The notes below the pieces were generated by a model. That model was not told the DNA's origin and did not search any database. It saw only the letters and a program-made list of their open reading frames with translations. Of a stretch of DNA of 61,061 bases, positions 22,070 through 40,498 are shown in pieces. Both the position numbers and the translations under genes were made by a program. Positions within the stretch are counted from its first letter, which is position 1, and every line of letters begins with the position of its first letter. This stretch comes from a virus: IMG/VR virus record IMGVR_UViG_3300008012_000030, positions 1 to 61,061 of that record, one strand, 5' to 3'.

Positions 22070-22094
22070 GTTTCTTTCCTACACTTTATATAAA

Positions 22095-22103: not shown

Positions 22104-22105
22104 AT

Positions 22106-22759
22106 TTACTTGCTATTTGAATTGAAACCAACACCAGGTCTTTTATCGTAAGCAAATTCAGGGTAATATGGCCCATTTTTATTTATGTAATGAAAGAACC
22201 CTTGTACTTGATAACTGTTAGAGCCTGCTTCAAATGGATCTCTCCAATGTTCTATTTCGCATCCTCTATATATTATACAATCTCCCGGCTGTTGAGGGGT
22301 CATTATACCCTTATTACCTTTAGAAATAAAGTCTTGATCGTGCATATTGTGTCTATAGGTAGGATCAACATACATGCCCCAGTTATAACTAGAATCTACA
22401 TCTAAATAATTAAATCCAAAACATATTGTTGTAGAAATTTCGCAACTTGGACGATCTGTGTGACGCTCTAATTCCATTCCGGGTCTGTAAACTCTAAAAT
22501 AAGAATAAGTTGGGCAAAGTTCTAATCCGGTATACTTTTCCATATGCGGTTTCATAAAAACCATCAATGTTTCCATTAATGTATCAGCGTATATACTATG
22601 AGAGTAGGGAACTTGACCATTATCATCTTCTTTTTTTGGGTTTACGGTTTCTTGCAATAGACAATATTGTGTAGTAATATTGCAAATATCTTTTGGTATA
22701 ATCCCTTGTAGAGCAATATATCTGTTTTCTTGAAAATTTTTATGATTTACTATTTCCAT
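22106..22759 (-). CDS. 2OG-Fe(II) dioxygenase
   Basis: I choose the ATG at 22759 (MEIVNHKNFQENRYIAL), which follows TAGGA, over a TTG seven codons upstream. The 217-aa protein has a double-stranded beta-helix pattern: TYSYFRVYRPGMELERHTDR gives the HxD pair (HTD, residues ~99-101), and GDCIIYRGCEIEHWRDPF gives the distal His. The downstream QVQGFFHYINKNGP replaces the usual R-x-S, so the 2OG-binding residue is unclear. The family uses Fe(II), 2-oxoglutarate and O2 to hydroxylate or otherwise oxidise a substrate, not identifiable here. Its start overlaps the upstream oxygenase by 10 bases. It is the last enzyme of the minus-strand cassette. Confidence 0.82.
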   Translation of the reverse strand: MEIVNHKNFQENRYIALQGIIPKDICNITTQYCLLQETVNPKKEDDNGQVPYSHSIYADTLMETLMVFMKPHMEKYTGLELCPTYSYFRVYRPGMELERHTDRPSCEISTTICFGFNYLDVDSSYNWGMYVDPTYRHNMHDQDFISKGNKGIMTPQQPGDCIIYRGCEIEHWRDPFEAGSNSYQVQGFFHYINKNGPYYPEFAYDKRPGVGFNSNSK

Positions 22760-23544
22760 GGTTTTCCTAAACTCCAACAAACTAAACTATATCGTGTTCC
22801 AGATGTTACAGGTGTAACTTGATGATATATATGCGACGGAAAAACAACTATACTTCCTCTAGGACGGATCTCTTCACACTCGTGATATCTATCTGGTCTA
22901 TGTGGTCCTAAGTCAAATTTTAAGTTTCCGCCTGTATAATCATTAGGATCTGATAGACTAATTGTTACACTAAGTTTTCTAATTTTGTTCCACATCTGAG
23001 GATTGTCAGTAACATGACTTTCTAAGGGCAACGGATCACCAAAGGCATTCAGCATGTCGTTACCATCTTTATCTTTTTTGGTTGAATGGATTGCAGGATC
23101 ATATTTTTCATAAGGTAATACACCACAATCGGCATGCCAACCATAATATTGATTTAAACCATATTTTGTAAATTGTATGTCTTCGGTAAAATCCCAATCA
23201 AAATTCCAGCCTGCTTGCCTATTTGCCTCATGAATAAACGGCCAAATAGTTTTGTACAGCCAATCATCATTTAACCACGAAACTTCACTATCTCTTAGTG
23301 CAAAATTATTTACATCGTCACCGTCTTTGAGTGCTTCTTCTAGGGTAATGTCAGCGGCATCTTTAACTAAATTAGGATCTAAATCGGACTTTGCCTTCCA
23401 ATCGCCTGTAGTGCCTTCAACTGCATAATTTCCATAATTACGTTTTGCTTCCGACATTTTTTCTAACCCGGTTTCAATAATTTTATCGCATACCTCTTCA
23501 GGCAATGCAGAAACAAAATACCAGTAATTATAGTTTAAAATCAT
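22750..23544 (-). CDS. PKHD-type 2OG-Fe(II) hydroxylase
   Basis: This 264-aa protein has the order of PiuC/PKHD-type hydroxylases: YWYFVSALPEEVCDKIIETG at the N-terminus, FTKYGLNQYYGWHADC with the HxD pair (residues ~138-140), LSVTISLSDPNDYTGGNLKF, and GSIVVFPSHIYHQVTPVTSG with the distal His, then TRYSLVCWSLGKPW with the Arg that binds 2-oxoglutarate. All catalytic residues are present. Family members hydroxylate peptidyl residues or small molecules; the substrate is unknown. The start is coupled to the upstream gene by ATGA. It is clearly related to that upstream gene, which has lost key residues. Confidence 0.9.
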   Translation of the reverse strand: MILNYNYWYFVSALPEEVCDKIIETGLEKMSEAKRNYGNYAVEGTTGDWKAKSDLDPNLVKDAADITLEEALKDGDDVNNFALRDSEVSWLNDDWLYKTIWPFIHEANRQAGWNFDWDFTEDIQFTKYGLNQYYGWHADCGVLPYEKYDPAIHSTKKDKDGNDMLNAFGDPLPLESHVTDNPQMWNKIRKLSVTISLSDPNDYTGGNLKFDLGPHRPDRYHECEEIRPRGSIVVFPSHIYHQVTPVTSGTRYSLVCWSLGKPWK

Positions 23545-24161
23545 CTAAAAATTGCTCCATGAACATGTCCTAAGATAATATTTTTTTCGCCGCTGGTAAC
23601 AGAATTTATTTTCCAAGTTAAGAAACTAGGAAAAATAACAATTGATCCTTTAGTATTACAATCAATTTTTGAAGTGTCTGTATTTAAAAATTCTAATTCT
23701 CCGCCTTGATATTCACTTTTATCTGACAAATTTATAATAAATGACATTTTACGAGTAGTAGCCATTGGAGTAATATCTATGTGCCAATCATAATAGTCAT
23801 TTTCACTGTATTTAAAAATTTGCGGAAAATCTTGATCAATAATTCCTAATAATCTAAAATCGTAGATCTCGTCATTGGCTTGTTTTGTAATAGATCTAAT
23901 ATGTTGAAAGGGAAATCCTTCAACTTCTCCTCTAATTTTTTGACGTTTAGAAGAGTGCAATTCTTTCTCACCAACTACTCTTGATTTAATCCAAAGATCT
24001 TCTAAACATCCGTCTAGTATTGTTTTACAATCTTCATCATTAAAAAGTTCTGCTACGTTTACTGATAAAATATCTAAACTTGCAAGTTTAGTTGATGTAG
24101 TTTCTTGTACAGCAGCATCTGTAAATCCGCTGTTTTGTTCAAATGTCGATTCGTTATCCAT
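23541..24161 (-). CDS. Degenerate PKHD-type 2OG-Fe(II) oxygenase-like protein
   Basis: This 206-aa protein aligns by eye with the neighbouring PKHD hydroxylase: SENDYYDWHIDITPM retains the HxD pair, KMSFIINLSDKSEYQGGELE matches the central strands and GSIVIFPSFLTWKINSVTSG the C-terminal ones. Where the active enzyme has the distal iron-ligand His (PSHIYHQVTPVTSG), this one has Trp/Lys, and the 2OG-binding Arg after TSG is Lys (GEKNIIL). Two of the five key residues are therefore changed. I infer a non-catalytic paralogue, perhaps a partner subunit, or an enzyme with altered chemistry. It follows AAGGA and is coupled by ATGA to the active hydroxylase downstream. Confidence 0.75.
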   Translation of the reverse strand: MDNESTFEQNSGFTDAAVQETTSTKLASLDILSVNVAELFNDEDCKTILDGCLEDLWIKSRVVGEKELHSSKRQKIRGEVEGFPFQHIRSITKQANDEIYDFRLLGIIDQDFPQIFKYSENDYYDWHIDITPMATTRKMSFIINLSDKSEYQGGELEFLNTDTSKIDCNTKGSIVIFPSFLTWKINSVTSGEKNIILGHVHGAIFR

Positions 24162-24207
24162 AGTTAGTCCTTTTAGTTATATGTATACTTATTTCAATCT
24201 ATTTGTG

Positions 24208-25386
24208 TCAATCAAAATAATGATACTGCATGTCTTGATCTAGATTTTTCCAAACTCCTGCCGGAAATGGAAATACTAAAGTTTGGTTTGTATAATATGC
24301 TGGTTCTAATCCTTTCATAGTATTAACATGTTGTTGCCATTTAGGATTAGATTCTAACTTTTCTTTACATTTTTTTGATGTTATTTGCCAAAATGTGCTA
24401 TCAAAAGTAGAGCCGCCGTGATACATATAATTGATGAATAATTCATAGTCTTCGGCTAAGTTGTGTAAATGAATATTTGCGGTTTCTTCTGTGTGAACAT
24501 TCGCTAAAACTACATCAAAAAAAGTTCTTATTATAGAATCATACATCCAACCAGATAGAGCCTCTAACGGTTCAAAGAATATAGCTCTATTTCCATTTTT
24601 TATAATCCTTCCGTCTATAAACTTTTTTGCTTTATAATTCTTAAATGAGAATTCACGTAAATTAAGTTTGTTTTTATCTGTATTGAATATTTCAGCAATG
24701 TTATCTATTGCCTCATCTTTTGTTGTAATTTTATCATTGTACAAATAACCCCATCCTTGTCTTGACTGCAACGGAATACCAAACATCCAACCATTAGGAT
24801 GTGCATAATGATACGTATAATTCCAATCTCCCGGCTTTGGTATCATATTTACAATGGCATGATTAACAGGAATATCTACCATTTCGTATTCTGAATAATC
24901 TTTAGGATATCCCCTACAATCTATGACATAATCAAAATCATGACTGGTATTATCTACAAAATTAATTACAGCTTTTTGTTGTAAATTATCTAAAGATTTT
25001 ATTTCACCTTCTAATACTTGGAACTTATTGTTCCATTTTTCTTTAAATCTTTTAAATGCAAATTCTTTAAGTTTAAAGTTATTGAAATGCATAGCATAAA
25101 AAGGAGGAGGTATTTTAGTAAAAAAGTCTTTTTCCCTCCAATTTACATATTTTACTCCATGTTTAATTGTGCTATCAAGTTCAGACATATCTTGTAAAAA
25201 ATTTAGATCTGCACCATAAAATAATGTTGTTGGTATTTGAGTGCTCGTACTTTCTCCTATTCCTAACATAGGAATATTTGGATCATATACTGAAGTAATC
25301 TGCCATTCATTTGTAAAAAATGCTAAACAATGAGCTAATGAAACAACTCCTGCTGTCCCTGTACCTAATACTGCAATTTTTTTCAT
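24208..25386 (-). CDS. Short, divergent flavin-dependent tryptophan-halogenase-family protein
   Basis: This 392-aa protein is about 100-140 residues shorter than PrnA or RebH. It keeps the FAD-binding GTGTAGVVS, the LGIGESTSTQIP motif, the catalytic Lys75 in DSTIKHGVKYVNW, an FAD segment DYVIDCRGYP and the EPLE motif in AIFFEPLEALSGW, which includes the Glu needed for halogenation. The usual GWxWxIP motif reads GWMFGIP, so one of the two tryptophans is lost. The substrate-binding half is reduced. It is coupled by ATGA to the 2OG oxygenase upstream. It could be a halogenase of narrower substrate size or a related flavin oxidase. Confidence 0.8.
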   Translation of the reverse strand: MKKIAVLGTGTAGVVSLAHCLAFFTNEWQITSVYDPNIPMLGIGESTSTQIPTTLFYGADLNFLQDMSELDSTIKHGVKYVNWREKDFFTKIPPPFYAMHFNNFKLKEFAFKRFKEKWNNKFQVLEGEIKSLDNLQQKAVINFVDNTSHDFDYVIDCRGYPKDYSEYEMVDIPVNHAIVNMIPKPGDWNYTYHYAHPNGWMFGIPLQSRQGWGYLYNDKITTKDEAIDNIAEIFNTDKNKLNLREFSFKNYKAKKFIDGRIIKNGNRAIFFEPLEALSGWMYDSIIRTFFDVVLANVHTEETANIHLHNLAEDYELFINYMYHGGSTFDSTFWQITSKKCKEKLESNPKWQQHVNTMKGLEPAYYTNQTLVFPFPAGVWKNLDQDMQYHYFD

Positions 25387-25979
25387 GTTTCGTCCACGTA
25401 ATTAAACCAACCTGTAATGATATATTTTTCTTGTGTCGGAGAAGGGATTCCTCTATGTGTAAAAGTCCAATCAGCTGGCCAAATAACAGTTTTTCCAATT
25501 TCTGCATTTACAGTAAGTTTTTGATTTAGCCATTCTGTTCCTCCTCCATCCGTAACATTATTCAAATATGTCATAAAAACTAAATGCCTAGTAACTGTAA
25601 TAGGATTGCCACTACAGCGTTCAGTGTGCCATGCATGGTATGCTTGCCCAGGTTTATACCATTGTATATTTAATGGTCTAAGCAATCTCCATGGAGCATA
25701 CATATCACAAGATGGGTATTTTTCTATATATTTTTCGACACATTTTTGTAATTGTTCAACATATTCAGCAACAACAGGAAAATCTAAACTATCGTCTATT
25801 GTTAATGATAAATCAGTAGATTCTTTTACAGATGGAGATGCTGTTACCAGTTTGCCGCCTTCAAAATTCATAGGTTTTTGTTTAGGATCCATTCTTGGGT
25901 GTGCATGAAACGTTTTAATCAACCTCTCGCATATACTTTCATCCATATAATATGTTTCTAAGAACAAGTTTTTTTCCAT
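25383..25979 (-). CDS. 2OG-Fe(II) oxygenase with HxE metal motif
   Basis: This 198-aa protein has the beta-helix core of the 2OG-Fe(II) superfamily: LNIQWYKPGQAYHAWHTERC holds an HTE pair (HxE instead of HxD), HLVFMTYLNNVTDGGGTEWL the central strands, and GKTVIWPADWTFTHRGIPSP the distal His, followed by KYIITGWF, where the usual Arg is Lys. HxE variants are known to be active in the superfamily. It is the first gene of the minus-strand cassette, with GGAG before the ATG and GATAAATA at 26001-26008. The divergent halogenase begins 55 bases away. Confidence 0.82.
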   Translation of the reverse strand: MEKNLFLETYYMDESICERLIKTFHAHPRMDPKQKPMNFEGGKLVTASPSVKESTDLSLTIDDSLDFPVVAEYVEQLQKCVEKYIEKYPSCDMYAPWRLLRPLNIQWYKPGQAYHAWHTERCSGNPITVTRHLVFMTYLNNVTDGGGTEWLNQKLTVNAEIGKTVIWPADWTFTHRGIPSPTQEKYIITGWFNYVDET

Positions 25980-25995
25980 GGTGGCTCCAATTTCA

Positions 25996-26008
25996 CTAAA
26001 TATTTATC
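25996..26008. promoter_or_regulatory. Divergent late-promoter pair between oxygenase and halogenase cassettes
   Basis: The plus strand reads CTAAATA (25996-26002) and the minus strand GATAAATA (26008-26001), overlapping in a TAAATATTTA palindrome. They point to the plus-strand halogenase (start 26034, with AGGAAG) and the minus-strand oxygenase (start 25979). Late co-expression of both cassettes is inferred. Confidence 0.5.
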
Positions 26009-26033
26009 TTAGTAGTTAATAGGAAGAAATTAA

Positions 26034-27575
26034 ATGAAAATAGTTATTGTCGGTGGTGGTACAGCAGGTTGGATGGCTGCACTTATGTTATCTAGTAGAC
26101 ATCCTAATCATAAGATTGAAGTTGTAGAGTCTACTAAGATAGGAATCATAGGTGTAGGGGAAAGCACTACAGGATTACTCAGTGATTTACTTAATAACCA
26201 TTTGTGGGATTTTGGTTGTGATCACAATGAGTTTATTGCAGAAACGGGCGCCTCAATCAAATATGGTATTAAGTTTACAGGTTGGACTCCAGACACTAAT
26301 GACTATTATATAGGACCAATTGACGGCAGTCTTACCAAAGAACACACACCTGATATATTTTTTGCATACGGATGTGCTAATCTTGCAAAAAAAGATCTTG
26401 TAAAAGTTTCAGAAACTGGTAACTACATTAACAAAGGATATACAAATTTTGACTTATCTACTGGTCAGTTTGTAGATCTTACACATGCAATGCATGTTGA
26501 TGCCCATTTAGTTGGAAAATATTTTCAAAAAGTTACTTTACGAAAACCAAATACTTCGCACATAGACGCAAAGGTATTAGATTGTACATTAAATGAAAAA
26601 GGGTTTATTAATAATATTATATTAGAAGACGGTAGGAAAATAGAAGGAGATTTTTTCATTGATTGTTCGGGATTTTCAAGACTACTTATTAGTAAAATGC
26701 CAGGTAATGACTGGGTAAGTTATCAAAAACATCTACCGGTCAACACAGGCTTACCATTTTTACTAGACTATAAAGAAGATGAAATGCCAATGCCGCATAC
26801 ACATGCCTGGGCTCAAGATGCAGGATGGATGTGGCAGATACCTTTATTAGATAGAATAGGAAACGGATATGTTTTCTGTGACGATTTTACTACTCCAGAG
26901 AAAGCTCATCAAGAAATTGAACAACGATTAGGAAGAGAAATTGATGTGCAAAAAGTAATCAAATTTAACACAGGAAGACAAAAATCATCTTGGATTAATA
27001 ACTGTCTTGCTATTGGTTTATCAAGTGCATTTTTAGAACCTTTAGAAGCAACAAGTATTCATTCTACAATAGTCCAAATAAAAAACTTTACCTTTGATTA
27101 CTTACGAGACGATTTAGAATCTACAATCAATTCAGGAACAGTTAATATTTACAATAAACGTACTAGAACAATGTTTGACGACTTCAAAGATTTTTTGGTT
27201 ATGCATTATATGGGAGGACGAACCGATACAGAGTTTTGGAAACATATTAAATCTGGAGCGACTAGAACAGAGTTTGTAGAAAATTTAATAGAAACAGCAA
27301 AAGTAAGATATCCTAATGTTAATGATTTTCCAAAATATTATGGTGCAGCAGGATGGCCGCTATATAGTTACGTAATGGAAGGTATAGGAGTAATTGATAG
27401 AGATCTTGCATTTAAAGAAATCAATTTTGATGCACCCAGGTTAGGTAACATCTATAAATCAGTTGAAGAAAATTATCTGTACATGCAAAAACAATGGCAT
27501 GAGCAATATTCCAAAAATGCTACTTGGAATGAAATGATAAACTATTTTAGAAAACTAAGAGAAAAACATGTATAA
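26034..27575 (+). CDS. Flavin-dependent tryptophan halogenase
   Basis: This 513-aa protein has full family length and every hallmark: FAD-binding IVGGGTAGWMAA (residues 5-16), GVGESTTGLLSD, catalytic Lys76 in GASIKYGIKFTGW, FFIDCSGFSRLL, the diagnostic GWMWQIP at 264-270 and catalytic Glu335 in FLEPLEATSIHST. Such enzymes use FADH2, O2 and halide to make hypohalous acid that is guided by the Lys to an aromatic substrate. They need a separate flavin reductase, and none is visible in the window, so a host one is presumably used. The substrate is unknown. It leads a plus-strand operon and overlaps the next oxygenase gene by 8 bases. Confidence 0.92.
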   Translation: MKIVIVGGGTAGWMAALMLSSRHPNHKIEVVESTKIGIIGVGESTTGLLSDLLNNHLWDFGCDHNEFIAETGASIKYGIKFTGWTPDTNDYYIGPIDGSLTKEHTPDIFFAYGCANLAKKDLVKVSETGNYINKGYTNFDLSTGQFVDLTHAMHVDAHLVGKYFQKVTLRKPNTSHIDAKVLDCTLNEKGFINNIILEDGRKIEGDFFIDCSGFSRLLISKMPGNDWVSYQKHLPVNTGLPFLLDYKEDEMPMPHTHAWAQDAGWMWQIPLLDRIGNGYVFCDDFTTPEKAHQEIEQRLGREIDVQKVIKFNTGRQKSSWINNCLAIGLSSAFLEPLEATSIHSTIVQIKNFTFDYLRDDLESTINSGTVNIYNKRTRTMFDDFKDFLVMHYMGGRTDTEFWKHIKSGATRTEFVENLIETAKVRYPNVNDFPKYYGAAGWPLYSYVMEGIGVIDRDLAFKEINFDAPRLGNIYKSVEENYLYMQKQWHEQYSKNATWNEMINYFRKLREKHV

Positions 27576-28224
27576 TGTAAAAAATATACAAGATGATATC
27601 TTTGTAATCAAAAACATTATCCCACAAGAGTATCAAAAAAGTATTCTAGAAAAAATAAAAGGAGACAATAGCTTTCCTTGGTATACAATAGATAAAATTG
27701 GACATAACCAATATTCAACCGACAACAAAAGTCCTTATAAAGATAAAAATGTAAGTGACTTTGGCGGTTTATATCATATGTTATATGATGAAGGCATAAA
27801 AAGGTCGGAGGATTTAGATTTTTTTGCTCCTATATTAAAGAATTATTGTGATATATTTGATAAACATATACAAACAATTTTTAGAATAAGAATGCGGTAC
27901 ACTCATCCTATTCCTGGTCATAACAACACCAAATATGCGGCACCGCATGTTGATTTTAATGATGATATAGATTTTAAAACACTAATTTACTATGTAGATG
28001 ACAGCGACGGCGATACAATATTGTTTAGTAAATTTCATAAACCAGGAATTGATGAATATGATCCTTTTCTCGATGAAGAATTAACAGTGGTATATAAACA
28101 CACACCAAAAAAAGGAGAAGCAATAGTTTTTAACGGAAATAGATACCATGCAGGAAATTATCCAATTACATATGGTAAAAGGATTGTTATTAACTTTGAC
28201 TTTGTAGAAAAAAATGAATCATAG
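27568..28224 (+). CDS. 2OG-Fe(II) oxygenase (subfamily shared with the gene at 33159-33752)
   Basis: This 218-aa protein has KYAAPHVDFNDDIDFKTLIY (HxD at ~128-130), a signature strand DDSDGDTILFSKFH, GEAIVFNGNRYHAGNYPITY with the distal His and KRIVINFDF with the 2OG Arg. N-terminal SFPWYTIDKIGHNQYS and GGLYHMLYDEG recur in the 197-aa protein at 33159-33752, so the two belong to one subfamily. All predicted iron and 2OG ligands are present. The start lies inside the end of the halogenase gene, which indicates translational coupling and possibly a shared pathway. The substrate is unknown. Confidence 0.88.
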   Translation: MYNVKNIQDDIFVIKNIIPQEYQKSILEKIKGDNSFPWYTIDKIGHNQYSTDNKSPYKDKNVSDFGGLYHMLYDEGIKRSEDLDFFAPILKNYCDIFDKHIQTIFRIRMRYTHPIPGHNNTKYAAPHVDFNDDIDFKTLIYYVDDSDGDTILFSKFHKPGIDEYDPFLDEELTVVYKHTPKKGEAIVFNGNRYHAGNYPITYGKRIVINFDFVEKNES

Positions 28225-29263
28225 AAAAATAAAAGTAGACGAAACAAAATTTATTGACATTTATGACGATGTTTTTGATTTTTCACAGCATTGTTACTTG
28301 TACGAATTTGTAAAAAATTGTTCTTATAGATTAAATCGCACAGCTAGTAGTTCTGTGCCTCAAGATAAACAATTTAAGACTTTATTAAGTGAATTTAACA
28401 TACATGACTTATTAAAAATTAATTTTTTTACAGCACCTAATTTAAAATTCTTAAGAGATAAAATTAAAACACATAATTTTAGATTACATCGAGCTTATGT
28501 CAATTTAAGTACAGCTCAAGATGTGTATCATTATCATGTTGACAGCAATATTGATGATGATTTTACATTATTATATTACTGCAATACAGCATGGGAAGAA
28601 AATTGGGAAGGAGAAACACATTTTGGTGATACTTTAGGACAAGAAATTATACACAGTTGTTCTTTTAAACCAAACAGAGTTGTGTTATTTACAGGAACAA
28701 TTCCGCACAAATCTTCTCAACCTAGTTTTTTTGCAAAAGATTTTAGGTACGTACTTACATTAAAATTTACACACCCTAACCACAAAGATTATTATACTGA
28801 TTTTCCAATTTCTGATTTTTTTGATGAAAATGTAGTGCTTACTGAACGGGAAATAAATGCTTTAGAGTTTTTGCAAAAAATTTGTTCAAACATAAAGCAC
28901 AGTGAATCAACCTTATATGAACATTTAAAAAATACTTGGCGGATTTTGAAAATTCAAAAAAGATCTGAAGACACATGTTTAGCAGGTATGTTTCATTCGG
29001 TATATGGTACAGAATTTTTTGATCAGCTATTATTAGATCGTGAAAATATTAAAACTATCATTGGGGATAGTGCTGAAGATTTAGTTTTTAAATTTTGTTC
29101 TTTAACAAATAGAGATGAACAATTATTAAATGATAACTGTTTTGAAAAAGAATTAATAGAAATAGCATATGCAAATTTAATTGAAGAAAAGTTTAGAAAT
29201 ATGTCTCATGAATCAGAAATAATTGCTTACAAAAATAAATTAGAAAAAATTAAAACTAAATGA
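28214..29263 (+). CDS. Fusion of 2OG-Fe(II) oxygenase and HD-like DUF6817-type domain
   Basis: Residues ~1-205 are a 2OG-Fe(II) oxygenase: RAYVNLSTAQDVYHYHVDSN with the HxD pair, FTLLYYCNTAWEENWEGETH, then RVVLFTGTIPHKSSQPSF with the distal His and DFRYVLTLKF with the Arg. Residues ~215-349 are a helical domain with CSNIKHSESTLYEHLKNTW, CLAGMFHSVYGTEFFDQ and IGDSAEDLVFKFCSLTNRDE. This H...EHL...LAG-FHS-YGTEFF pattern is that of DUF6817-type HD-like proteins, whose function I do not know. The fusion suggests oxygenation and a second metal-dependent step on one substrate. It overlaps the upstream oxygenase by 11 bases and the convergent gene by 24. Confidence 0.8.
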   Translation: MNHRKIKVDETKFIDIYDDVFDFSQHCYLYEFVKNCSYRLNRTASSSVPQDKQFKTLLSEFNIHDLLKINFFTAPNLKFLRDKIKTHNFRLHRAYVNLSTAQDVYHYHVDSNIDDDFTLLYYCNTAWEENWEGETHFGDTLGQEIIHSCSFKPNRVVLFTGTIPHKSSQPSFFAKDFRYVLTLKFTHPNHKDYYTDFPISDFFDENVVLTEREINALEFLQKICSNIKHSESTLYEHLKNTWRILKIQKRSEDTCLAGMFHSVYGTEFFDQLLLDRENIKTIIGDSAEDLVFKFCSLTNRDEQLLNDNCFEKELIEIAYANLIEEKFRNMSHESEIIAYKNKLEKIKTK

Positions 29264-29851: not shown

Positions 29852-29864
29852 TTTAATCATACAA

Positions 29865-29872
29865 TATTTATT
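29865..29872 (-). promoter_or_regulatory. Late promoter-like motif (AATAAATA)
   Basis: The minus strand reads CAATAAATATTG, 13 bases before the ATG at 29851, for the single-gene oxygenase unit. The sequence is itself a 12-bp palindrome with the plus strand. Confidence 0.4.
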
Positions 29873-29898
29873 GATATAGGTAACTGAGAAAAAAAGAA

Positions 29899-31383
29899 AT
29901 GAAAAATATTAAAACCTGTAATATTATAGGAGGCGGTACAGCTGGATTTGTATCTGCACTAATTCTTAAGACACGTTTCCCTCATGTTGACGTACAAGTA
30001 ATACGATCAACAAAGATAGGCATTATTGGTGTAGGAGAAGGAAGTACAGAACATTGGGCAGAATTTATGCATTATATAGGTAAAACATGGCAAGATATAA
30101 TAGTAGAATGTGATGCTACATTTAAATCAGGTATAATGTTTGAAGGATGGAGTGAAGAAAATTTTTTACACAGTACTTCAGGAGATTACGCAAAGTTAAA
30201 CGGCCAATATTATCACGTTTACGGAAAAATAATTGCAGAAAAAAGTCCTAAATGTGATATGAATCCAAAAAGAGTTTGGCGAAGTAAACTTCCTTCACAT
30301 TTCGCACAGGATAAAGATATACATTCGCCCTTCAATCAATTTCATTTTAATACACATAAGTTGAACGACTTTCTCACAAGAACTGCAATAGAGAAAGGTA
30401 TAAAAGTTATAGATGACGAAATTACAGATGTAAAAATAGATGAAAACGATGAAATCGATATTGTCTATGGTTTAAAAAATAATTATAAATCTGACTTTTT
30501 TATTGACTGCACAGGGTTTAGTAGATTATTAATTACAAAACTCGGAGCAAAGTGGCAAAGCTATAACAAATATCTTAAAATGAAATCTGCTATAGTATTT
30601 CCTATAGAAGAGCAGGATGAGATTCCAATTTGGACCTTAGCAAAGGCAATGGATTACGGATGGTTATTTAGAATTCCTGTATATGGAAGATTTGGCAACG
30701 GTTATATCTTTGATTCCGATTACATAAATGCTGATCAAGCTAAACAAGAAGTTGACAGTTTATTTAATAAAGACATTGAAATTAAGAAACAAATTAATTT
30801 TGATCCAGGTGCTTTAAACAAAGTGTGGATAAACAACTGTTGTGCAGTGGGCCTTTGTGCTAACTTTGTTGAACCTTTAGAAGCAACAAGTATAGGCACA
30901 ACAATTCAACAAATGTTTCTTTTAATGCATAGATTACCTAATTACACACAAAAAACTATTGAAATTTACAATCGTGATATAACAGATATAATGGAAAACA
31001 TAAGAGATTTTATAATTTTACATTACATAACTAAAAAAGACAACACTCAATTCTGGAAAGATGTTTCAAAATTACAAATACCAACTAGTTTGCAAGATAA
31101 ATTAGAATCTTTTAAAACTAATTTGCCTATCGAGGAAGATTTTAGAGATATTTCTAAATATGCTCTTTTTGGTGCGCCTCATTATATACAAATTTTATAT
31201 GGTTTAGATCTATTTAATATAGAAGCAATAAAAAATGAATATAATTCTATGCATCCTTTTATTAAAGACCATGCAGAAGAAGTGTTGGAAACTGTTAGAG
31301 AATTCGATTTGCAACAGCCTTCATTGAAGCATAAATTATTTCTAGATATAATTAGAGAAAATCACATCAAAAAAATTGCTTGA
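29899..31383 (+). CDS. Flavin-dependent tryptophan-halogenase-family protein
   Basis: This 494-aa protein has NIIGGGTAGFVSAL (FAD-binding), GVGEGSTEHWAEF, catalytic Lys76 in DATFKSGIMFEGW, FFIDCTGFSRLL and the catalytic Glu in NFVEPLEATSIGTT. The GWxWxIP motif is altered to GWLFRIP (residues ~254-260), as in the short homologue at 24208-25386, although the rest is full length. The sequence closely parallels the 513-aa halogenase (both have STKIGIIGVGE and EPLEATSI), so these are likely duplicates. It is a single-gene plus-strand unit whose 3' end overlaps the convergent oxygenase by 22 bases. Confidence 0.87.
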   Translation: MKNIKTCNIIGGGTAGFVSALILKTRFPHVDVQVIRSTKIGIIGVGEGSTEHWAEFMHYIGKTWQDIIVECDATFKSGIMFEGWSEENFLHSTSGDYAKLNGQYYHVYGKIIAEKSPKCDMNPKRVWRSKLPSHFAQDKDIHSPFNQFHFNTHKLNDFLTRTAIEKGIKVIDDEITDVKIDENDEIDIVYGLKNNYKSDFFIDCTGFSRLLITKLGAKWQSYNKYLKMKSAIVFPIEEQDEIPIWTLAKAMDYGWLFRIPVYGRFGNGYIFDSDYINADQAKQEVDSLFNKDIEIKKQINFDPGALNKVWINNCCAVGLCANFVEPLEATSIGTTIQQMFLLMHRLPNYTQKTIEIYNRDITDIMENIRDFIILHYITKKDNTQFWKDVSKLQIPTSLQDKLESFKTNLPIEEDFRDISKYALFGAPHYIQILYGLDLFNIEAIKNEYNSMHPFIKDHAEEVLETVREFDLQQPSLKHKLFLDIIRENHIKKIA

Positions 31384-31982
31384 TTAATTCTTGTATTATG
31401 GAAAAACATATCACTGTCTACAGCCATGCCATGACATAATGCTTTCCCATCAAATAAAACTAATCTATTAAATTTTGCCGGTACTGAATATATTAATTCG
31501 TAACGATTTTTTTGCCGCCAAGGTTCAAAATGTTCAGGAGTATTCCAAGAATCTTCACAAATTTGTTTGTAAAAATTAGTGCCTTCACTTTCAAAATTAT
31601 TTAAATAAATCAATCCTGTAAATCCTAAGTCACTGTGAGGTGCCCAATAATATTTTGTGTAATCATTAAATGTTTTGTCATAAAAACGCATACAATTTGT
31701 TACTATTCTTCCAGGTTGAGCTATTTTTTGTTCTGTAAGAGTTTCAAAAAAGTTATTGTACACACACGACCTTTCATCTACAAAATCATGTCTATGATCT
31801 AAAAAATATTTTCCATTAAAAGACGGGTTATCCCAACTTTTCCACTTATTCCACGGATGGCTTTCAATTATATCTAAGACGCTCTGCGGTTTTTTATAAA
31901 AATTGTCTATTATATAGATATTAGTGTTTAAAACACTAATTTTTTTTGTGTTATGGGTTGTAAAATCAAACAAACTAGACAT
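31362..31982 (-). CDS. DUF6445-type 2OG-Fe(II)-like protein
   Basis: This 206-aa protein has an N-terminal segment IYIIDNFYKKPQSVLDIIES typical of DUF6445-like proteins, then KYYWAPHSDLGFTGLIYLNN with an HxD pair, and RLVLFDGKALCHGMAVDSDM with the distal His, followed by NTRINQAIFLM with the Arg. The complete HxD...H...R set predicts an active Fe/2OG enzyme. DUF6445 members are often found near tryptophan halogenases in bacteria as far as I recall. It is the last of four minus-strand oxygenase genes and begins 3 bases after the previous stop. Confidence 0.8.
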   Translation of the reverse strand: MSSLFDFTTHNTKKISVLNTNIYIIDNFYKKPQSVLDIIESHPWNKWKSWDNPSFNGKYFLDHRHDFVDERSCVYNNFFETLTEQKIAQPGRIVTNCMRFYDKTFNDYTKYYWAPHSDLGFTGLIYLNNFESEGTNFYKQICEDSWNTPEHFEPWRQKNRYELIYSVPAKFNRLVLFDGKALCHGMAVDSDMFFHNTRINQAIFLM

Positions 31983-31985
31983 AAT

Positions 31986-32567
31986 TTATCCATAATTTAA
32001 TGCTAAACTTATTCTAGGTTCTACATTAGTGCCTGTTTGCACACAATGTCTTACGTAAGATCTAAAAATAACTAGGGTACCTACTTCGGGTGTATATCCT
32101 ACTTTTACATAAGATAACTCGTTTCTATCTTTTATTTCTTTTAACGGTAACATATCAGGAGCTCTAGGATCTTCAAAAATTATATTTCCACTACCTTTAG
32201 GCACTGTTACATAATACACAGCACTAAAAATACTGCCGTCATGTGTATGAAATTCTTGGAAATTACCAGGTCGTGAAATATTAGCCCAACTGTGTTCCAT
32301 TTTATATTCATACATACTATTATGTGCCTTAGCAAAATCATTAACATGCTCAGTAACACATTCTATAACAGGTTCTAGTAATTTACTTTCAGATAAATCG
32401 TGTGTAATATGAGTTGTATATGTTCCTCCTTCCCAATCTGTACCACCACTAGGTATTGTATTAGGCCATTTTAATATTTCATTTTCTATTTCTTTGTTGA
32501 AACTTGTTGGAAATAGATTTTTTTGAATATAAATCGGCGTGGGAAACCAAAGTTCTATATTAGCCAT
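31986..32567 (-). CDS. TIGR02466-type putative 2OG-Fe(II) oxygenase
   Basis: This 193-aa protein starts NIELWFPTPIYIQKNLFP, the family's usual opening (FPTPIY). It continues with SWANISRPGNFQEFHTHDGS, FSAVYYVTVPKGSGNIIFED, the DPR segment PRAPDMLP, then GTLVIFRSYVRHCVQTG and EPRISLALNY. The metal motif is HTH(D), the distal His lies in VRHCVQ and the Arg in PRIS. It is one of three TIGR02466-type proteins in the island. Its first 8 bases overlap the preceding gene, another member of the same family, so the two are probably duplicated neighbours. Confidence 0.85.
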   Translation of the reverse strand: MANIELWFPTPIYIQKNLFPTSFNKEIENEILKWPNTIPSGGTDWEGGTYTTHITHDLSESKLLEPVIECVTEHVNDFAKAHNSMYEYKMEHSWANISRPGNFQEFHTHDGSIFSAVYYVTVPKGSGNIIFEDPRAPDMLPLKEIKDRNELSYVKVGYTPEVGTLVIFRSYVRHCVQTGTNVEPRISLALNYG

Positions 32568-33168
32568 CTTTTATCATCCATGCATTAAAGGCAACACTAT
32601 ATCTATCCTGATTAGATTTATTTGGCTGTACTTGATGAGGCATCCAAGACGGAAAAATTATTCCGTTACCTGATTTAGGATTTAAACTATACAAAGGATA
32701 ATTGTACATATTTTCTTCTTTTTTAGCAAACAAGTATTGAGTAAAATTTTGTGCTTTTACACCAAGCGGTTCGTGAAATACAAAATTTCCGCTATCTTTA
32801 CTTGTCTTTAGCCACACTACTGCACTTACAAAACTACCATAATGTTCGTGTACGCTGTGGTGTGTGGCTGGTTTATTTAAATTCAACCAACTTTCTAATC
32901 TTATGCTAGAATTTGGGTCAAAACCTATTCCGTGTAAATATTTTCTAATCATCTCTATAACATGCTCTGATAAATCGCTGTCATTATTACCGCAATAGTT
33001 TCTCTCTATGTCTTCGTGATACGTTGTAATTGTACTTCCTAAATGATTCTTTTCATACCATTTATTTTTTCCAACAAATTTCTCTGCTAAATCTAAACTT
33101 TTTTCTATTAACGATCCAGGTAGATCAAATTTTAAAATTGGTGTTGGAAAGATATTTTCTACTTGCAT
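32560..33168 (-). CDS. TIGR02466-type putative 2OG-Fe(II) oxygenase
   Basis: This 202-aa protein opens with VENIFPTPILKFDLPGSLIE. The core is SWLNLNKPATHHSVHEHYGS, then FVSAVVWLKTSKDSGNFVFH, EPLG and GNGIIFPSWMPHQVQPNKSN, followed by DRYSVAFNAWM. The first metal motif is HEH, the distal His is in PHQV and the 2OG Arg in DRYS. The HxH pattern is shared by all three TIGR02466-like proteins here. It overlaps the upstream 197-aa oxygenase by 10 bases and the downstream paralogue by 8, so all four minus-strand genes are read as one message. Confidence 0.85.
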   Translation of the reverse strand: MQVENIFPTPILKFDLPGSLIEKSLDLAEKFVGKNKWYEKNHLGSTITTYHEDIERNYCGNNDSDLSEHVIEMIRKYLHGIGFDPNSSIRLESWLNLNKPATHHSVHEHYGSFVSAVVWLKTSKDSGNFVFHEPLGVKAQNFTQYLFAKKEENMYNYPLYSLNPKSGNGIIFPSWMPHQVQPNKSNQDRYSVAFNAWMIKDG

Positions 33169-33752
33169 TTTAAATTCACATTCAGTACTATACGTCTATT
33201 TACATGTATAGGATTACTAGCTGTATGATACTGAAATCCGTCAATTAGTAATAATCGATTAGCTTTTGGTTGAACAGTATCTTTAACAGTAAATTTTGTG
33301 GGCTCTTTATCATTATAATCCCTATAATTTTCCTCAAAAATTCTAGTATCTCCGTCACTGTCATTTAAATAATAAATGATTGTGTCGTGCGAAGATCTTA
33401 CATCAATGTGGGGCAAATTATAATTTTCTTTATTGTATCCTAATTTAGGAACTTTTAACCCAAGTCTTGCTCTTAACAAATCGTCTTGCGTGTATCCAAA
33501 AGTCTGAGAAAGTTTTTCAAAAAAATCTAAAAATGCATCAAAGAACATGCCGCCATTTTTGTAATCTTCGTCATCTGAGTACAGCATATGGTACCAACCA
33601 TCTGTTTCTAATGCGTACGGATCGTTAATATTATGTTCCTCCGGTGGCAAAGATACTTGATCGGCATAAAACCATGGAAATTTGTTCGACATTACAAAAT
33701 TTGCAAGGTTATTGAACTTGACTTTTGGTAAAAACTCATCTATAATATGCAT
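33159..33752 (-). CDS. 2OG-Fe(II) oxygenase (paralogue of the gene at 27568-28224)
   Basis: This 197-aa protein opens IIDEFLPKVKFNNLANFVMS and has SNKFPWFYADQV, GWYHMLYSDDE, then NYNLPHIDVRSSHDTIIYYL with the HxD pair, NDSDGDTRIFEENY, and RLLLIDGFQYHTASNPIHVN with the distal His followed by RRIVLNVNL with the Arg. The FPW-Y-D, YHMLY, DSDGDT and YHxxxNP blocks match the 218-aa enzyme on the other strand. It is the first gene of the four-gene minus-strand cassette. A CTAAATA motif lies only 8 bases ahead of the ATG (33760-33766). Confidence 0.87.
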   Translation of the reverse strand: MHIIDEFLPKVKFNNLANFVMSNKFPWFYADQVSLPPEEHNINDPYALETDGWYHMLYSDDEDYKNGGMFFDAFLDFFEKLSQTFGYTQDDLLRARLGLKVPKLGYNKENYNLPHIDVRSSHDTIIYYLNDSDGDTRIFEENYRDYNDKEPTKFTVKDTVQPKANRLLLIDGFQYHTASNPIHVNRRIVLNVNLKCK

Positions 33753-33759
33753 TGTAAGA

Positions 33760-33766
33760 TATTTAG
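33760..33766 (-). promoter_or_regulatory. Late promoter-like motif (CTAAATA) close to start codon
   Basis: The minus strand reads CTAAATATC, with 7 bases between the motif and the ATG at 33752. As at 4936, the spacing would leave almost no leader. It is a tentative promoter for the four-oxygenase cassette. Confidence 0.3.
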
Positions 33767-33822
33767 TAGAAAATTTTTATGGCCACTTCATATCAGATAA
33801 GTAAATTACATAGAGGTAAAAA

Positions 33823-34551
33823 ATGTTCACAATATTTAAAAAGAGAAAAACAATAACAATAGATTGCTTTACAAATCATGCGTATTCACATGATTTATTT
33901 CCTATAAAAAAAGCAACTCATTTTTTACCCGAATGGTGGAAAAAATTACCAAATAATTTTGAAACAGAAACTGCTCAGGGACTAGTCATTCCTCAAAGAA
34001 CAATGAAAGGCTGCGCCGGACTAACAAATTTATATAGAAACGGAATTGTTTTACCTTTATGGAGCGACCTACTCATTGAAACTAGAGGTGCTGACTTTGC
34101 CTATCAATTTGCAGACAATATGAGTACTGTGGGATTTCATCCTTTGGATCAACTAGGTGAAGAATTTTCTCAATATACACATACAAAAATTATAAGCCCT
34201 TGGAGAATTAAAGAAAAAACAGGAGTAAATTTTTTATATATGGATTTACCTTGGAATCATCCAAGAGACTTAATGAATCAATGCACTCCTCCCGGATTAG
34301 TTGAATACAAGTATCAACACACTACTAATATTAATATGTTTTTACGTAAAGGTGCAAAATATTTTTTCAAAGCTGGAAGACCGATGGCGCATCTAATACC
34401 TATGACAGATGATAATATTGAATTAAAATGTCATCTTGTAGGAGATGATGAAATTCAAAGAGTAATGAATAATTTAAGTTTTCCGTTTTTTGTTGACGGA
34501 TATGCAAGAGCAAAAAGTATTTTATCAAAAAAGAACAAAGGTAAAAAATGA
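33823..34551 (+). CDS. Halogenase-island protein of unknown function, 242 aa
   Basis: The protein has recognisable conserved-looking blocks: CFTNHAYSHDLFPIKKATHF, LPEWWKKLPNNF, MKGCAGLTNLYRNGIVLPLW, SPWRIKEKTGVNFLYMDLPW and LRKGAKYFFKAGRPMAHLIP. No catalytic signature is evident. The pattern P-x-WWK-x-LP...C-x-x...G-x-x-x-PLW resembles DUF6065-like proteins that accompany tryptophan halogenases, as far as I recall. It shares its overall plan with the 240-aa protein two genes downstream (C-x-x-x-T-N/D...F-x-x-x-D-L-x-IE). A GAGG site precedes it. It overlaps the next halogenase gene by 4 bases (ATGA). I infer a substrate-binding or halogenase-partner role. Confidence 0.7.
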   Translation: MFTIFKKRKTITIDCFTNHAYSHDLFPIKKATHFLPEWWKKLPNNFETETAQGLVIPQRTMKGCAGLTNLYRNGIVLPLWSDLLIETRGADFAYQFADNMSTVGFHPLDQLGEEFSQYTHTKIISPWRIKEKTGVNFLYMDLPWNHPRDLMNQCTPPGLVEYKYQHTTNINMFLRKGAKYFFKAGRPMAHLIPMTDDNIELKCHLVGDDEIQRVMNNLSFPFFVDGYARAKSILSKKNKGKK

Positions 34552-36020
34552 AAATTAATAGTATAGCTATTATAGGCGGTGGAACTGCTGGATGGTTAAC
34601 TGCTGCTTATTTAAAGAATCAAATTCCACATTTAGATATTACGTTAATAGATAAAAAAATTTCTCAAACCGTGGGAGTGGGCGAGGGAACACTTTTAAAC
34701 ATTGGTGATTTTTTAGAAGAATGTGGTTTTCCTTTTTTTGAATGGTTTACAGAGACAGATGCATCATACAAAAGCAGTATTCTTTTTAAAAATTGGCAGG
34801 AAAAAAACAAGGATATTTGGCACCCATTTTTTAAAAGGCCAACGAAAATAAATGAAAAGTTTAGGCTACAAGATTTGTGGTCACAAAATCAAGATTTAGA
34901 CTTTAAGAAATATGCCAGTGCATTATACCAAGCCAGTATTGAAAATAAAGTTAATAATAATTCATTAAAAAGCTATGCATTTCATATCGATTGCGGTAAA
35001 TTAGTAAAATACATTCAAAATAAAATTAAAATTAATTACATAGACAGCGAAGTTGTTGTTGTCAACAAAGATAATGATATCATCACATCTATAGAATTAG
35101 AAAATGGAAAAAATATTACAAGTAATTTATTTGTAGATTGTACTGGTTGGAAAAATATTTTAGGTGCACCTAAGTATAAGATCGATTTGCAGGATCGATT
35201 GTTTTGCAATACCGCAATAGCAGGACATGTACCATATAAAGACAAACAAAAGGAACTTCACCCTTATGTAATTAGCGAAGCAGTAGATCATGGTTGGATT
35301 TGGAATATACCAGTATATTCAAGAATTGGTAGCGGACTTGTTTTTAATCGTAAAATTACTGATATCGAAGAAGCAAAGAAATATTTTGTTAATTATTGGG
35401 ACAACAGAATTACTGTTAATGATGTCAAAGTATTAGACTGGACTCCTTACTATTACAAGGATATGTGGGAAGGAAATAGAGTATGCATAGGTTTAAGTGC
35501 AGGATTTATTGAACCTTTAGAAAGCACAGGTGTTGCTATGATAACAAGTGGTATAACACAACTGGCTAATGCTATTAGAGAACAATTTATAACAGAACTT
35601 GATATAAAATATTTTAATACACAAATGCAAATACTTTTTGAAGATTGCGTAGATTTTGTAAGTATGCACTATTACGACAACAAACGTAAAACTAATTTTT
35701 GGAATTGGGTAAATGAAACATTTGTTAAAACTGACAGAATGAAATTTTATATAGAAATGCTAAAAAACAATAATCATCCTTTGCCCTATGATGGTCATTT
35801 TAACAGTATATTTATTGGGTGTAATTGGACAACTTGGTTATGTCAAATGAATTTTGATGTAGCTAAGAGACATACTGGATTTTCAGAAGAAGAGTCAAGA
35901 GAAAAATTATTAGCAGAATATATTTTACAAGAAAAATATATTGCGGAAAATAGTATAGACCATTTAAGTACTCTAAACAGAATACACGAACAATACCGAG
36001 TAGCAAATGAAAACAGTTAA
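34548..36020 (+). CDS. Flavin-dependent tryptophan halogenase
   Basis: This 490-aa protein has IIGGGTAGWLTAAYL, GVGEGTLLNIGDFL, catalytic Lys75 in TDASYKSSILFKNW, LFVDCTGWKNILG, the intact GWIWNIP motif and the catalytic Glu in GFIEPLESTGVAM. It carries all diagnostic residues of the PrnA/RebH superfamily, with EPLESTG rather than the EPLEATS of the first two full-length halogenases, so it belongs to the other sub-branch together with the 518-aa enzyme at 36713-38269. It is coupled on both sides to the two related unknown proteins (4- and 14-base overlaps). Confidence 0.92.
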   Translation: MKINSIAIIGGGTAGWLTAAYLKNQIPHLDITLIDKKISQTVGVGEGTLLNIGDFLEECGFPFFEWFTETDASYKSSILFKNWQEKNKDIWHPFFKRPTKINEKFRLQDLWSQNQDLDFKKYASALYQASIENKVNNNSLKSYAFHIDCGKLVKYIQNKIKINYIDSEVVVVNKDNDIITSIELENGKNITSNLFVDCTGWKNILGAPKYKIDLQDRLFCNTAIAGHVPYKDKQKELHPYVISEAVDHGWIWNIPVYSRIGSGLVFNRKITDIEEAKKYFVNYWDNRITVNDVKVLDWTPYYYKDMWEGNRVCIGLSAGFIEPLESTGVAMITSGITQLANAIREQFITELDIKYFNTQMQILFEDCVDFVSMHYYDNKRKTNFWNWVNETFVKTDRMKFYIEMLKNNNHPLPYDGHFNSIFIGCNWTTWLCQMNFDVAKRHTGFSEEESREKLLAEYILQEKYIAENSIDHLSTLNRIHEQYRVANENS

Positions 36021-36729
36021 TTGGTCTTTTCACACAGGACATGAATACAATTTAGATAATCCTAGTTCAGCAAAAAGATTTATTACTGAAGACTATAATG
36101 GATATCAACCATTATTTAAAGACTTAATGAAAAACAGAAAAGGCGTAACATATGCCAAATGTCCAGCGGTCACAGATTTTTTTAAAAATACATTTGTGTT
36201 TTGTAGTCCAATGGATTTAAATATAGAAATTAAAGTTGATAAAAATGATGCAAGCGTATGGTGTAATAATGTAGATCAAGAATTTTTTGACCAAATGATA
36301 GATATACGTTTTTTTGACAAAAAAGAAAAAGGTATAAGTCCTTTTCCTTTATTAGGAATAGACTTTCTTAATACATTTACTTGCAAACATTCTATTATTT
36401 TGCAAACACTTCCAGCCTTCTTACACTATAACGATTTTACAAAAAAGACAAAGGTTATTCCTGGTGAATACGATATTAGCAAATGGGTGAGGCCTTTAGA
36501 GTTAGTATTTGAAATCGAAAATACTATAGAAAAAATATCAATAAAAAAAGGCGATGCTTTGGCTTATTTTAAATTTTTAGATGAGAATATTGTTAAATTG
36601 AAAAAAAATCCAGTACCATGGATTGAAATTATTGCTTGTAACGAGATAAGAAATAAAAACAAATATAGGCCATTAAAAGAAAGATACGATAGTTATACAA
36701 TTTGGAAAAACAATGGCAACACCAATTAA
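36007..36729 (+). CDS. Halogenase-island protein of unknown function, 240 aa
   Basis: The protein starts MKTVNWSFHTGHEYNLDNPS and contains YAKCPAVTDFFKNTFVFCSP, MDLNIEIKVDKNDASVWCNN, LLGIDFLNTFTCKHSIILQT and IEKISIKKGDALAYFKFLDE. No enzyme motif is recognised. The block order (Cys-containing turn, hydrophobic strand, D-L-x-IE, then a long strand before LP and a KxGxxxAxx near the end) parallels the 242-aa protein at 33823, so both probably share a fold. It lies between two halogenases, overlapping both (14 and 17 bases), which suggests a stoichiometric partner. Confidence in the gene is high; the function is unknown. Confidence 0.7.
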   Translation: MKTVNWSFHTGHEYNLDNPSSAKRFITEDYNGYQPLFKDLMKNRKGVTYAKCPAVTDFFKNTFVFCSPMDLNIEIKVDKNDASVWCNNVDQEFFDQMIDIRFFDKKEKGISPFPLLGIDFLNTFTCKHSIILQTLPAFLHYNDFTKKTKVIPGEYDISKWVRPLELVFEIENTIEKISIKKGDALAYFKFLDENIVKLKKNPVPWIEIIACNEIRNKNKYRPLKERYDSYTIWKNNGNTN

Positions 36730-38269
36730 AAAAATAATAATCGTAGGAGGAGGAAGTGCAGGATGGATGACTGCTTCTACGATTGTAAAACAAATAAAAA
36801 ATGTAGAATTAACATTAGTTGAAAGCAGTGATATTCCAACTGTGGGAGTAGGAGAAAGCACTGTAGGCGGTATCCGCAGGTGGATGCGCATGATAGGAAT
36901 AAAAGACGAAGAATTTGTAAAAGAGACAGATGCTAGTTATAAGTTAGCAATTAAATTTAATAACTTTTATGAGAAAGGTAATACATGGTATTATCCATTT
37001 GGTGGACCACATCTAAAAGAAAATATTTACAATCGTAATGATTGGTTTGTTAAAAAATCTCTACATCCAGATACACCAGAATATGATATGACAGATTGTT
37101 ATTACCCTCAAATGAGTTTAGTAAAACAAAATAAAATTTCTGTTGACCCAAACATTCCAGATTTTAAATTTTATGAAGATACGGCATTTCATTTTGATGC
37201 AAGTAAGTTTGGTGTTTGGTTGAAAAATCATATCTGTTTACCAAACGGTGTAAAACATATAGTTGCAGATGTATCTCCTGTTGTAGAAAATAGACAAATA
37301 AAATATCTACAATTATCAAATGGAGAGAAATTGTCAGCTGATCTATACGTGGACTGTACAGGATTTAAAAGTTTGTTGTTAGGAGAATCATTACAAGAAC
37401 CTTTTATTTCATATGAAAACTTATTACCAAATAATCGCGCTTGGGCTACTAGAGTTCCTTATATTGATAAAGATAAAGAATTGCAATCAGTTACAGAGTG
37501 TACAGCTATAGATTATGGCTGGGTTTGGAATATACCTTTATGGAGTAGAGTTGGAACAGGCTATGTGTATAGCGACAAACACATTTCCTCTGAAAATGCT
37601 TTAAAGGAATTTAAACAATATCTCAATAACAAAGGACATCAAACTGATTCTTTAGAGTTTCGTGATATAAAGATGCGTGTAGGAAGGCACAAAAAACTTT
37701 GGGTTAACAACGTGGTTGCTGTAGGTTTAAGTGCAGCATTTATTGAACCTTTAGAAAGCACAGGACTTGTAACAGTATACGAATTTGCCATAAATTTATG
37801 CAGAGCTCTTAGAAGAAAAAACATAAGCCAATGGGATATTGACGAATATAATTCTACTAGTATAGACCAGTTTGATTACTTTGCGCAGTTTGTTTGTATG
37901 CACTACGCTCTGTCTCATAGAAATGATACTTCATATTGGCAAGATGTGACGTCAAGATCTTATCTATCAGAACTTGCAAATTTAGGCGAATTACAAACAC
38001 AACGCCTATTACATCATACCATCTGGAAAAAATTTAACGATTGGCAATTGCCTTTAGATAATGGTTTATTATGCCTTGCTGCAGGTATGAATTGGTATCC
38101 TATGGATGAAATCATAATCAATGGATTCAACCAAGAAATTGAAGATAATAAAGTTTGGTATAGAAAGGCTATTGTGGGTCTAGATATGCGCAAGGCTGAA
38201 TGGAATAATGCTGTTAAAGAGTTGCCGTCATTAAAAGATTTTCTTTATACAAATTATTACAAAGATTAA
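36713..38269 (+). CDS. Flavin-dependent tryptophan halogenase
   Basis: This 518-aa protein has IIIVGGGSAGWMTAST, GVGESTVGGIRRWM, catalytic Lys77 in TDASYKLAIKFNNF, LYVDCTGFKSLLLG, the intact GWVWNIP motif and the catalytic Glu in AFIEPLESTGLVT. All family hallmarks are present at usual length. It is the last gene of the plus-strand operon 33823-38269 (unknown, halogenase, unknown, halogenase), with its start inside the preceding gene. Its 3' end overlaps the first Gly-rich fibre gene by 4 bases. The GESTVGGIRRWM motif is very close to bacterial tryptophan halogenases. Confidence 0.93.
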   Translation: MATPIKKIIIVGGGSAGWMTASTIVKQIKNVELTLVESSDIPTVGVGESTVGGIRRWMRMIGIKDEEFVKETDASYKLAIKFNNFYEKGNTWYYPFGGPHLKENIYNRNDWFVKKSLHPDTPEYDMTDCYYPQMSLVKQNKISVDPNIPDFKFYEDTAFHFDASKFGVWLKNHICLPNGVKHIVADVSPVVENRQIKYLQLSNGEKLSADLYVDCTGFKSLLLGESLQEPFISYENLLPNNRAWATRVPYIDKDKELQSVTECTAIDYGWVWNIPLWSRVGTGYVYSDKHISSENALKEFKQYLNNKGHQTDSLEFRDIKMRVGRHKKLWVNNVVAVGLSAAFIEPLESTGLVTVYEFAINLCRALRRKNISQWDIDEYNSTSIDQFDYFAQFVCMHYALSHRNDTSYWQDVTSRSYLSELANLGELQTQRLLHHTIWKKFNDWQLPLDNGLLCLAAGMNWYPMDEIIINGFNQEIEDNKVWYRKAIVGLDMRKAEWNNAVKELPSLKDFLYTNYYKD

Positions 38270-40496: not shown

Positions 40497-40498
40497 AA

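Follow-up and report, generated by a model that had tools for sequence, protein, structure and literature searches.

The window analyzed here, from a large uncultured tailed phage, is one whole IMG/VR virus record, IMGVR_UViG_3300008012_000030, of 61,061 bases. Between positions 22106 and 38269 it carries an island of 16,164 bases and 18 genes, all of which were profiled: five flavin-dependent halogenases (PF04820), 11 proteins of the 2-oxoglutarate (2OG)-Fe(II) oxygenase type, and two others, termed PA and PB. The left edge lies no more than 40 bases from a tail assembly chaperone gene, and the right edge overlaps genes for glycine-rich fiber-tip proteins (38266 to 41617). The original prediction, made from the sequence alone, had given the correct coordinates and pointed to the density of these enzymes among tail-fiber genes, which profile searches confirmed; it did not single out the adjoining tip genes. 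We see an even chance that the island is a late-expressed set of genes for hydroxylating and halogenating the fiber-tip adhesins of the phage itself.

The island is authentic and rich in halogenases and oxygenases

The original prediction named an assembly chimera with a bacterial biosynthetic cluster as one threat to its reading. One contig matches window positions 4484 to 38293 at 99.98% identity, a second matches 20027 to 40027 at 99.92%, and a third matches 36429 to 55753 at 98.3%. Because these three independent contigs together span both island junctions, a chimera is ruled out. The label "T4-like" given to the phage needs qualification, as its tail sheath is nearest to those of jumbo phages such as Agrobacterium phage Atu_ph07. 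The halogenases are as follows.

24208 to 25386, minus strand: short flavin-dependent halogenase of 392 amino acids (PF04820, 1.1e-31), in its own clade with G028 and G029
26034 to 27575, plus strand: flavin-dependent halogenase (PF04820, 2e-99), [AC]TAAATA 38 bp upstream
29899 to 31383, plus strand: flavin-dependent halogenase (PF04820, 5.9e-92)
34548 to 36020, plus strand: flavin-dependent halogenase (PF04820, 2e-83)
36713 to 38269, plus strand: flavin-dependent halogenase (PF04820, 2.8e-110), placed in the VirX1 clade by the tree, with VirX1 its best solved match (9.5e-104)

All five score above the Pfam gathering cutoff for PF04820 and have the GxGxxG flavin site. The catalytic Lys and the Glu of the EPLE motif, both already noticed in the original prediction, are invariant (5/5); three of the proteins have WxWxIP and the other two WxFxIP. 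In the tree, the divergent islands G001, G002, and G048 contain one-to-one orthologs of four of the halogenases, at 49 to 59% identity and with full support; for the halogenase at 36713, the orthologs in the tree come from G001 and G002 only, the G048 copy being cut by the contig end. The halogenase set is therefore old and has been kept, with no burst of duplication, and recent tandem duplication of one halogenase is ruled out. The shorter type of halogenase (about 370 to 410 amino acids), represented here at 24208 to 25386, recurs in S-ShM2, S-SSM5, S-RIM4, S-SSM7, and P-TIM40, and in S-ShM2 and S-RIM4 it lies about 8 to 9 kb upstream of a tip gene.

The remaining 13 island genes encode the oxygenase-type proteins, PA, and PB.

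22106 to 22780, minus strand: 2OG oxygenase-like protein, recurrent module member (phrog_2954, apparently misnamed ferrochelatase; H107-x-D109 and a later His)
22750 to 23544, minus strand: 2OG-Fe(II) oxygenase, PKHD/PiuC-like (PF13640; HAD...H...R)
23541 to 24161, minus strand: 2OG-Fe(II) oxygenase (PF13640; Trp in place of the distal His)
25383 to 25979, minus strand: 2OG-Fe(II) oxygenase, first gene of a minus-strand operon (PF13640; ATAAATA 28 bp upstream)
27568 to 28224, plus strand: 2OG oxygenase-like protein (phrog_274; HVD...H...R)
28214 to 29263, plus strand: 2OG oxygenase-like domain fused to DUF6817 (PF20680 for DUF6817)
29240 to 29860, minus strand: 2OG-FeII_Oxy_5 protein (PF13759; late motif 11 bp upstream)
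31362 to 31982, minus strand: DUF6445 oxygenase-like protein (PF20043, phrog_1644; HSD...H...R)
31986 to 32567, minus strand: 2OG-FeII_Oxy_5 protein (PF13759)
32560 to 33168, minus strand: 2OG-FeII_Oxy_5 protein (PF13759)
33159 to 33752, minus strand: 2OG oxygenase-like protein, first of a four-gene minus-strand operon (phrog_274; [AC]TAAATA 14 bp upstream)
33823 to 34551, plus strand: PA, a putative dUTPase-like-fold protein, overlapping the next halogenase gene by 4 bases
36007 to 36729, plus strand: PB, a remote homolog of PA, between two halogenases

The claim that these 11 proteins are oxygenase-like was upheld: nine have Pfam support (PF13640, PF13759, or PF20043), two of these at subthreshold scores, and the proteins at 22106 to 22780 and 33159 to 33752 are recognized by PHROG families only, with HxD and a distal His seen by eye in both. 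HxD/E with a distal His is present in 7 of the 11 (motif check completed by eye), and in the three PF13759 members the motif takes an HxH form, again with a distal His. The oxygenase at 23541 to 24161 may be inactive, since a Trp stands where the distal His should be. PHROG families 2954, 274, and 1644, whose names (ferrochelatase, DNA endonuclease V, and minor coat protein) have spread through phage annotations, appear 2OG oxygenase-like, and those names look like misannotations.

PA and PB are neither halogenases nor oxygenases, and both overlap halogenase genes. The structural model of PA (predicted local distance difference test [pLDDT], 88.5) weakly resembles dUTPase folds (E about 1e-3), and the idea that the pair are flavin reductases or degenerate oxygenases was dropped on this account. 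Few relatives of either were found in single-sequence scans.

The island adjoins predicted receptor-binding fiber tips

Three tandem glycine-rich proteins (PF21722) follow the island, and the gene for the first shares four bases with the last halogenase gene.

38266 to 39387, minus strand: glycine-rich fiber-tip protein 1, proposed substrate (PF21722, 9.9e-9)
39387 to 40496, minus strand: glycine-rich fiber-tip protein 2, proposed substrate (PF21722, 3.5e-10; model matches the Pam3 fiber)
40499 to 41617, minus strand: glycine-rich fiber-tip protein 3, proposed substrate (PF21722, 2.7e-6)

Among solved structures, the model of tip protein 2 (pLDDT, 84; predicted template modeling score, 0.84) best matches the fiber of cyanophage Pam3 (E = 2.5e-5). 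In Pam3, the glycine-rich domain, which is similar to phage S16 gp38, is proposed as the receptor-recognizing tip (PMC9608196); in phage PP01, loops of the polyglycine lattice, including Tyr230, touch the receptor OmpC (PMC12892980). We propose that the window's glycine-rich proteins are tips built like the Pam3 fiber, which by analogy with Pam3 and gp38 would bind the receptor. In S-CREM1 (L097, about 5826 to 6620; record positions 54758 to 55282), a tip copy broken by in-frame stops lies beside an intact one, as if tip copies turn over.

The linkage of tips and enzymes recurs in viruses

The original prediction called for a survey of co-occurrence in phages. We examined 53 halogenase loci from viruses, each 9 kb or longer, in records picked by halogenase similarity. 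A 2OG gene was present in 49 of the 53 loci and three or more in 40; a glycine-rich tip was present in 38, within 5 kb in 35. With the Pfam PF21722 model, tips were found in 31 of 52 halogenase records. Among bacterial halogenase loci used as a control, 16 of 74 had a 2OG gene and 1 had a tip, and among phoH loci the figures were 3/40 and 0/40. The difference in tip linkage was marked between viral and bacterial loci (Fisher P = 6e-19) and between viral and phoH loci (P = 4e-14), although kinship of the genomes makes linkage P values overstate independence. The sole bacterial locus with tips, L234, is a 14.7-kb contig of a "Maricaulis" metagenome-assembled genome that holds a whole tip-oxygenase-halogenase module; it is probably viral, from a mis-binned or integrated phage.

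Rotation tests on complete phage genomes gave the same picture: 17 of 24 halogenases had a PF21722 gene no more than 10 kb away (3.1 expected; P ≤ 5e-5), as did 44 of 125 PF13640 oxygenases (15.1 expected; P ≤ 5e-5). In six genomes that lack a long, VirX1-length halogenase (three without any halogenase and three with the short type only), 17 of 41 oxygenases were at the tip, compared with 4.6 expected (P = 1.5e-4). Oxygenases thus still cluster at the tip without the long halogenase, and so the tip and oxygenase array looks like the core of the system and the halogenase like an addition. Gene maps of many Kyanoviridae show the order giant fiber, tips, small gene, halogenase(s), PA, and oxygenases, and the tip-enzyme arrangement is common to Kyanoviridae and the jumbo-like lineage of the window. 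A published evolution experiment with S-TIM4 (PMC6224464) was considered as support and set aside: about 17 kb separate the mutated 2OG gene, ORF23, from ORF41, the probable tip gene, so the result does not support the linkage.

Promoter motifs suggest late expression with virion genes

The word ATAAATA occurs at 16 sites in the window, 12 of which fall 5 to 60 bp ahead of a gene start, against 0.37 expected; among permuted words, the runner-up scored 5 of 42. ATAAATA precedes tail genes, the tail assembly chaperone gene, and, within the island, the genes at 25383 and 29240, and the related [AC]TAAATA precedes those at 26034 and 33159; neither was found ahead of 29899 or 33823. The arrays of Syn10, S-RIM44, S-CREM1, P-TIM40, and Sf-FP1 have similar sites upstream. 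A late-type motif common to tail genes and island operons suggests that the island is expressed late, together with virion genes.

The surroundings of the island include the following genes.

21650 to 22069, minus strand: tail assembly chaperone at the left island edge (PF16778; late motif 33 bp upstream)
41624 to 42427, minus strand: fiber protein with a Peptidase_S74 chaperone domain

A phage GroES (PF00166) and GroEL (PF00118) pair at 19678 to 21653 lies directly left of the tail assembly chaperone and the island, and similar DNA (64 to 65%) is found beside the islands in G002 and G048. Among the fiber genes are a subtilase (S8) protease gene (15765 to 18314) and, at 48948 to 50891, a fiber protein with several CBM_5_12 carbohydrate-binding repeats.

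Fiber tips as candidate substrates

The gene families, catalytic motifs, fiber-like fold of a neighbor, recurrent virus-specific linkage, and late-promoter motifs shared with tail genes lead us to infer the tips as the substrate, and with them the modified residues, the halide, and an effect on adsorption. Before or during fiber assembly, the 2OG-Fe(II) oxygenases would hydroxylate tip side chains, with Pro, Asn, Asp, His, and Lys as candidates, and the flavin halogenases would add Cl, Br, or I to aromatic side chains (Tyr, Trp, or His). Such modification could alter adhesion and receptor choice. Because no flavin reductase was recognized among the profiled island genes, the halogenases would draw reduced flavin from the host. 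The JmjC_2 protein of the P-TIM40 cassette is nearest to NO66, MINA, and the ribosomal L16 arginine hydroxylase, all of which are protein hydroxylases. Halogenated and hydroxylated proteins were among the products suggested in the original prediction, and the analysis supports them as a possible product. The broader claim, that phages carry a widespread, virus-specific system for posttranslational hydroxylation and halogenation of their own receptor-binding tips, and that these tips are the native substrate of VirX1-type enzymes, falls slightly on the doubtful side of even.

Several points weigh against modification of the tips. The functional evidence is all by association, and the substrate could be another fiber protein or a host protein. 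Aromatic residues in the tips are not diagnostic: His, Tyr, and Trp together make up 9.5% of tips in Kyanoviridae and 8.2% in jumbo-like cassettes, compared with only 4.4% for the remaining halogenase-linked tips and 4.7% for four tips of halogenase-free phages, and aromatic enrichment was dropped as a fingerprint of halogenation. Homologs of PA and PB are found away from such cassettes too. The halogenase of S-B64 is beside recombination genes, that of P-SSM2 is far from a PF21722 gene, and that of S-SSM7 (L131) is in a carbamoyltransferase/nucleotide-sugar cluster, where it may serve a glycan or metabolite. Besides the kinship noted above, the choice of records by halogenase similarity and the fixed genome position of the phoH control bear on the survey.

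The fiber regions of large phages are hot spots of recombination where auxiliary genes collect, and the enzymes might be cargo of such a hot spot that acts on host metabolism or several unrelated substrates, with the tips as incidental neighbors. Cyanophage 2OG enzymes do occur elsewhere in genomes, and halogenases occur in other contexts. However, the pairing of these enzyme subfamilies with this tip family recurs in distant lineages, the oxygenase arrays stay at the tip without the long halogenase, and bacterial relatives lack the linkage. General cargo should also be more mixed, whereas these 16 kb hold only these enzymes and PA and PB. We consider this explanation unlikely.

Tailoring of a small molecule or peptide, one of the outcomes that the original prediction offered for a whole tailoring pathway, seems improbable. 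The classical substrates of PF04820 enzymes are free tryptophan or natural products, and the sugar and carbamoyltransferase genes around the S-SSM7 halogenase would fit such a role. Yet no scaffold-building enzyme was identified in the island: profiling of its 18 genes turned up no nonribosomal peptide synthetase, polyketide synthase, or precursor peptide (small open reading frames overlapping genes were outside this search), and with 211 noncoding bases in 16,164 there is hardly room for a precursor-peptide gene. A self-contained pathway thus found no support, and the late-type promoters also speak against it. About as improbable, and if anything a touch more so, is modification of the host surface or a host protein, in which the enzymes would alter a receptor, outer membrane protein, or polysaccharide late in infection and, for example, block readsorption. 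Fiber-linked genes often deal with the receptor, and bacterial relatives of the halogenases adjoin long open reading frames of about 900 to 1,000 amino acids, which we presume may be TonB-type receptors. Action before lysis would, however, need delivery to the surface, and no export signal was noticed in the island proteins, though none was systematically searched for.

The 2OG oxygenases of cyanophages and the halogenases of viruses have earlier been linked to DNA repair, nitrogen sensing, protection from or synthesis of antibiotics, a secondary metabolite or capsule decoration, and host reprogramming (PMC9146016, PMC3037559, PMC2984593, PMC7824862, PMC9602691), and the functions of the cyanophage 2OG enzymes had not been specifically investigated, according to recent work (PMC9602691). 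Cassettes of one to three halogenases with oxygenases are already in databases. The linkage to tips appears undescribed: no earlier statement of it, or of tail-fiber modification, was found in the literature searched, which did not cover subscription papers and preprints. If shown, the proposed function would be new in kind. It would account for the location of the oxygenase arrays, give VirX1 a testable native substrate, and add nonstandard residues to host recognition, so that the receptor-binding specificity of many marine phages could not be read from gene sequence alone. The enzymes would also be a source of catalysts that halogenate whole proteins.

Comparison with known systems

The original prediction had stated that single viral halogenases are known. 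Single ones do exist, but several phages and uncultured contigs carry more: three in S-RIM44 and P-TIM40 and two in Syn9/Syn10 and P-RSM6, several of them beside oxygenase arrays, and other uncultured contigs also have five. In bacteria (Colwellia, Sphingomonas, and others), halogenase loci encode PF04820 relatives at about 31 to 37% identity, sometimes with DUF6445-like genes; unlike the window, and L234 excepted, they lack glycine-rich tips and oxygenase arrays. The tips themselves resemble S16 and PP01 gp38 and Pam3 gp24, polyglycine lattice tips with receptor-recognizing loops (PMC12892980, PMC9608196), for which, unlike the window, no modification enzymes are described in the literature searched.

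A similar arrangement is seen in the Kyanoviridae S-RIM44, P-RSM6, P-TIM40, S-WAM1, S-CREM1, and Sf-FP1, in which tandem glycine-rich tips are followed by one or two halogenases and 2OG arrays; these cassettes have fewer halogenases than the window and a single-strand order. JmjC_2 genes are present in the Syn10 and P-TIM40 cassettes and absent from the window. VirX1 (PDB 6qgm) corresponds to Syn10 CPUG_00131 over its whole length. According to a review (PMC8407142), which names no biosynthetic cluster for VirX1, the active site of the enzyme is large and accessible. VirX1 has no listed native substrate and iodinates diverse aromatics in vitro. Its Syn10 cassette runs from fiber genes through two glycine-rich tips, a small gene, a halogenase, VirX1, and PA to about ten oxygenases. 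The window shares with it the VirX1 clade, to which the halogenase at 36713 to 38269 belongs, and differs in its five halogenases of separate subfamilies, its PB genes, its convergent and divergent operons, and its jumbo-phage-like lineage.

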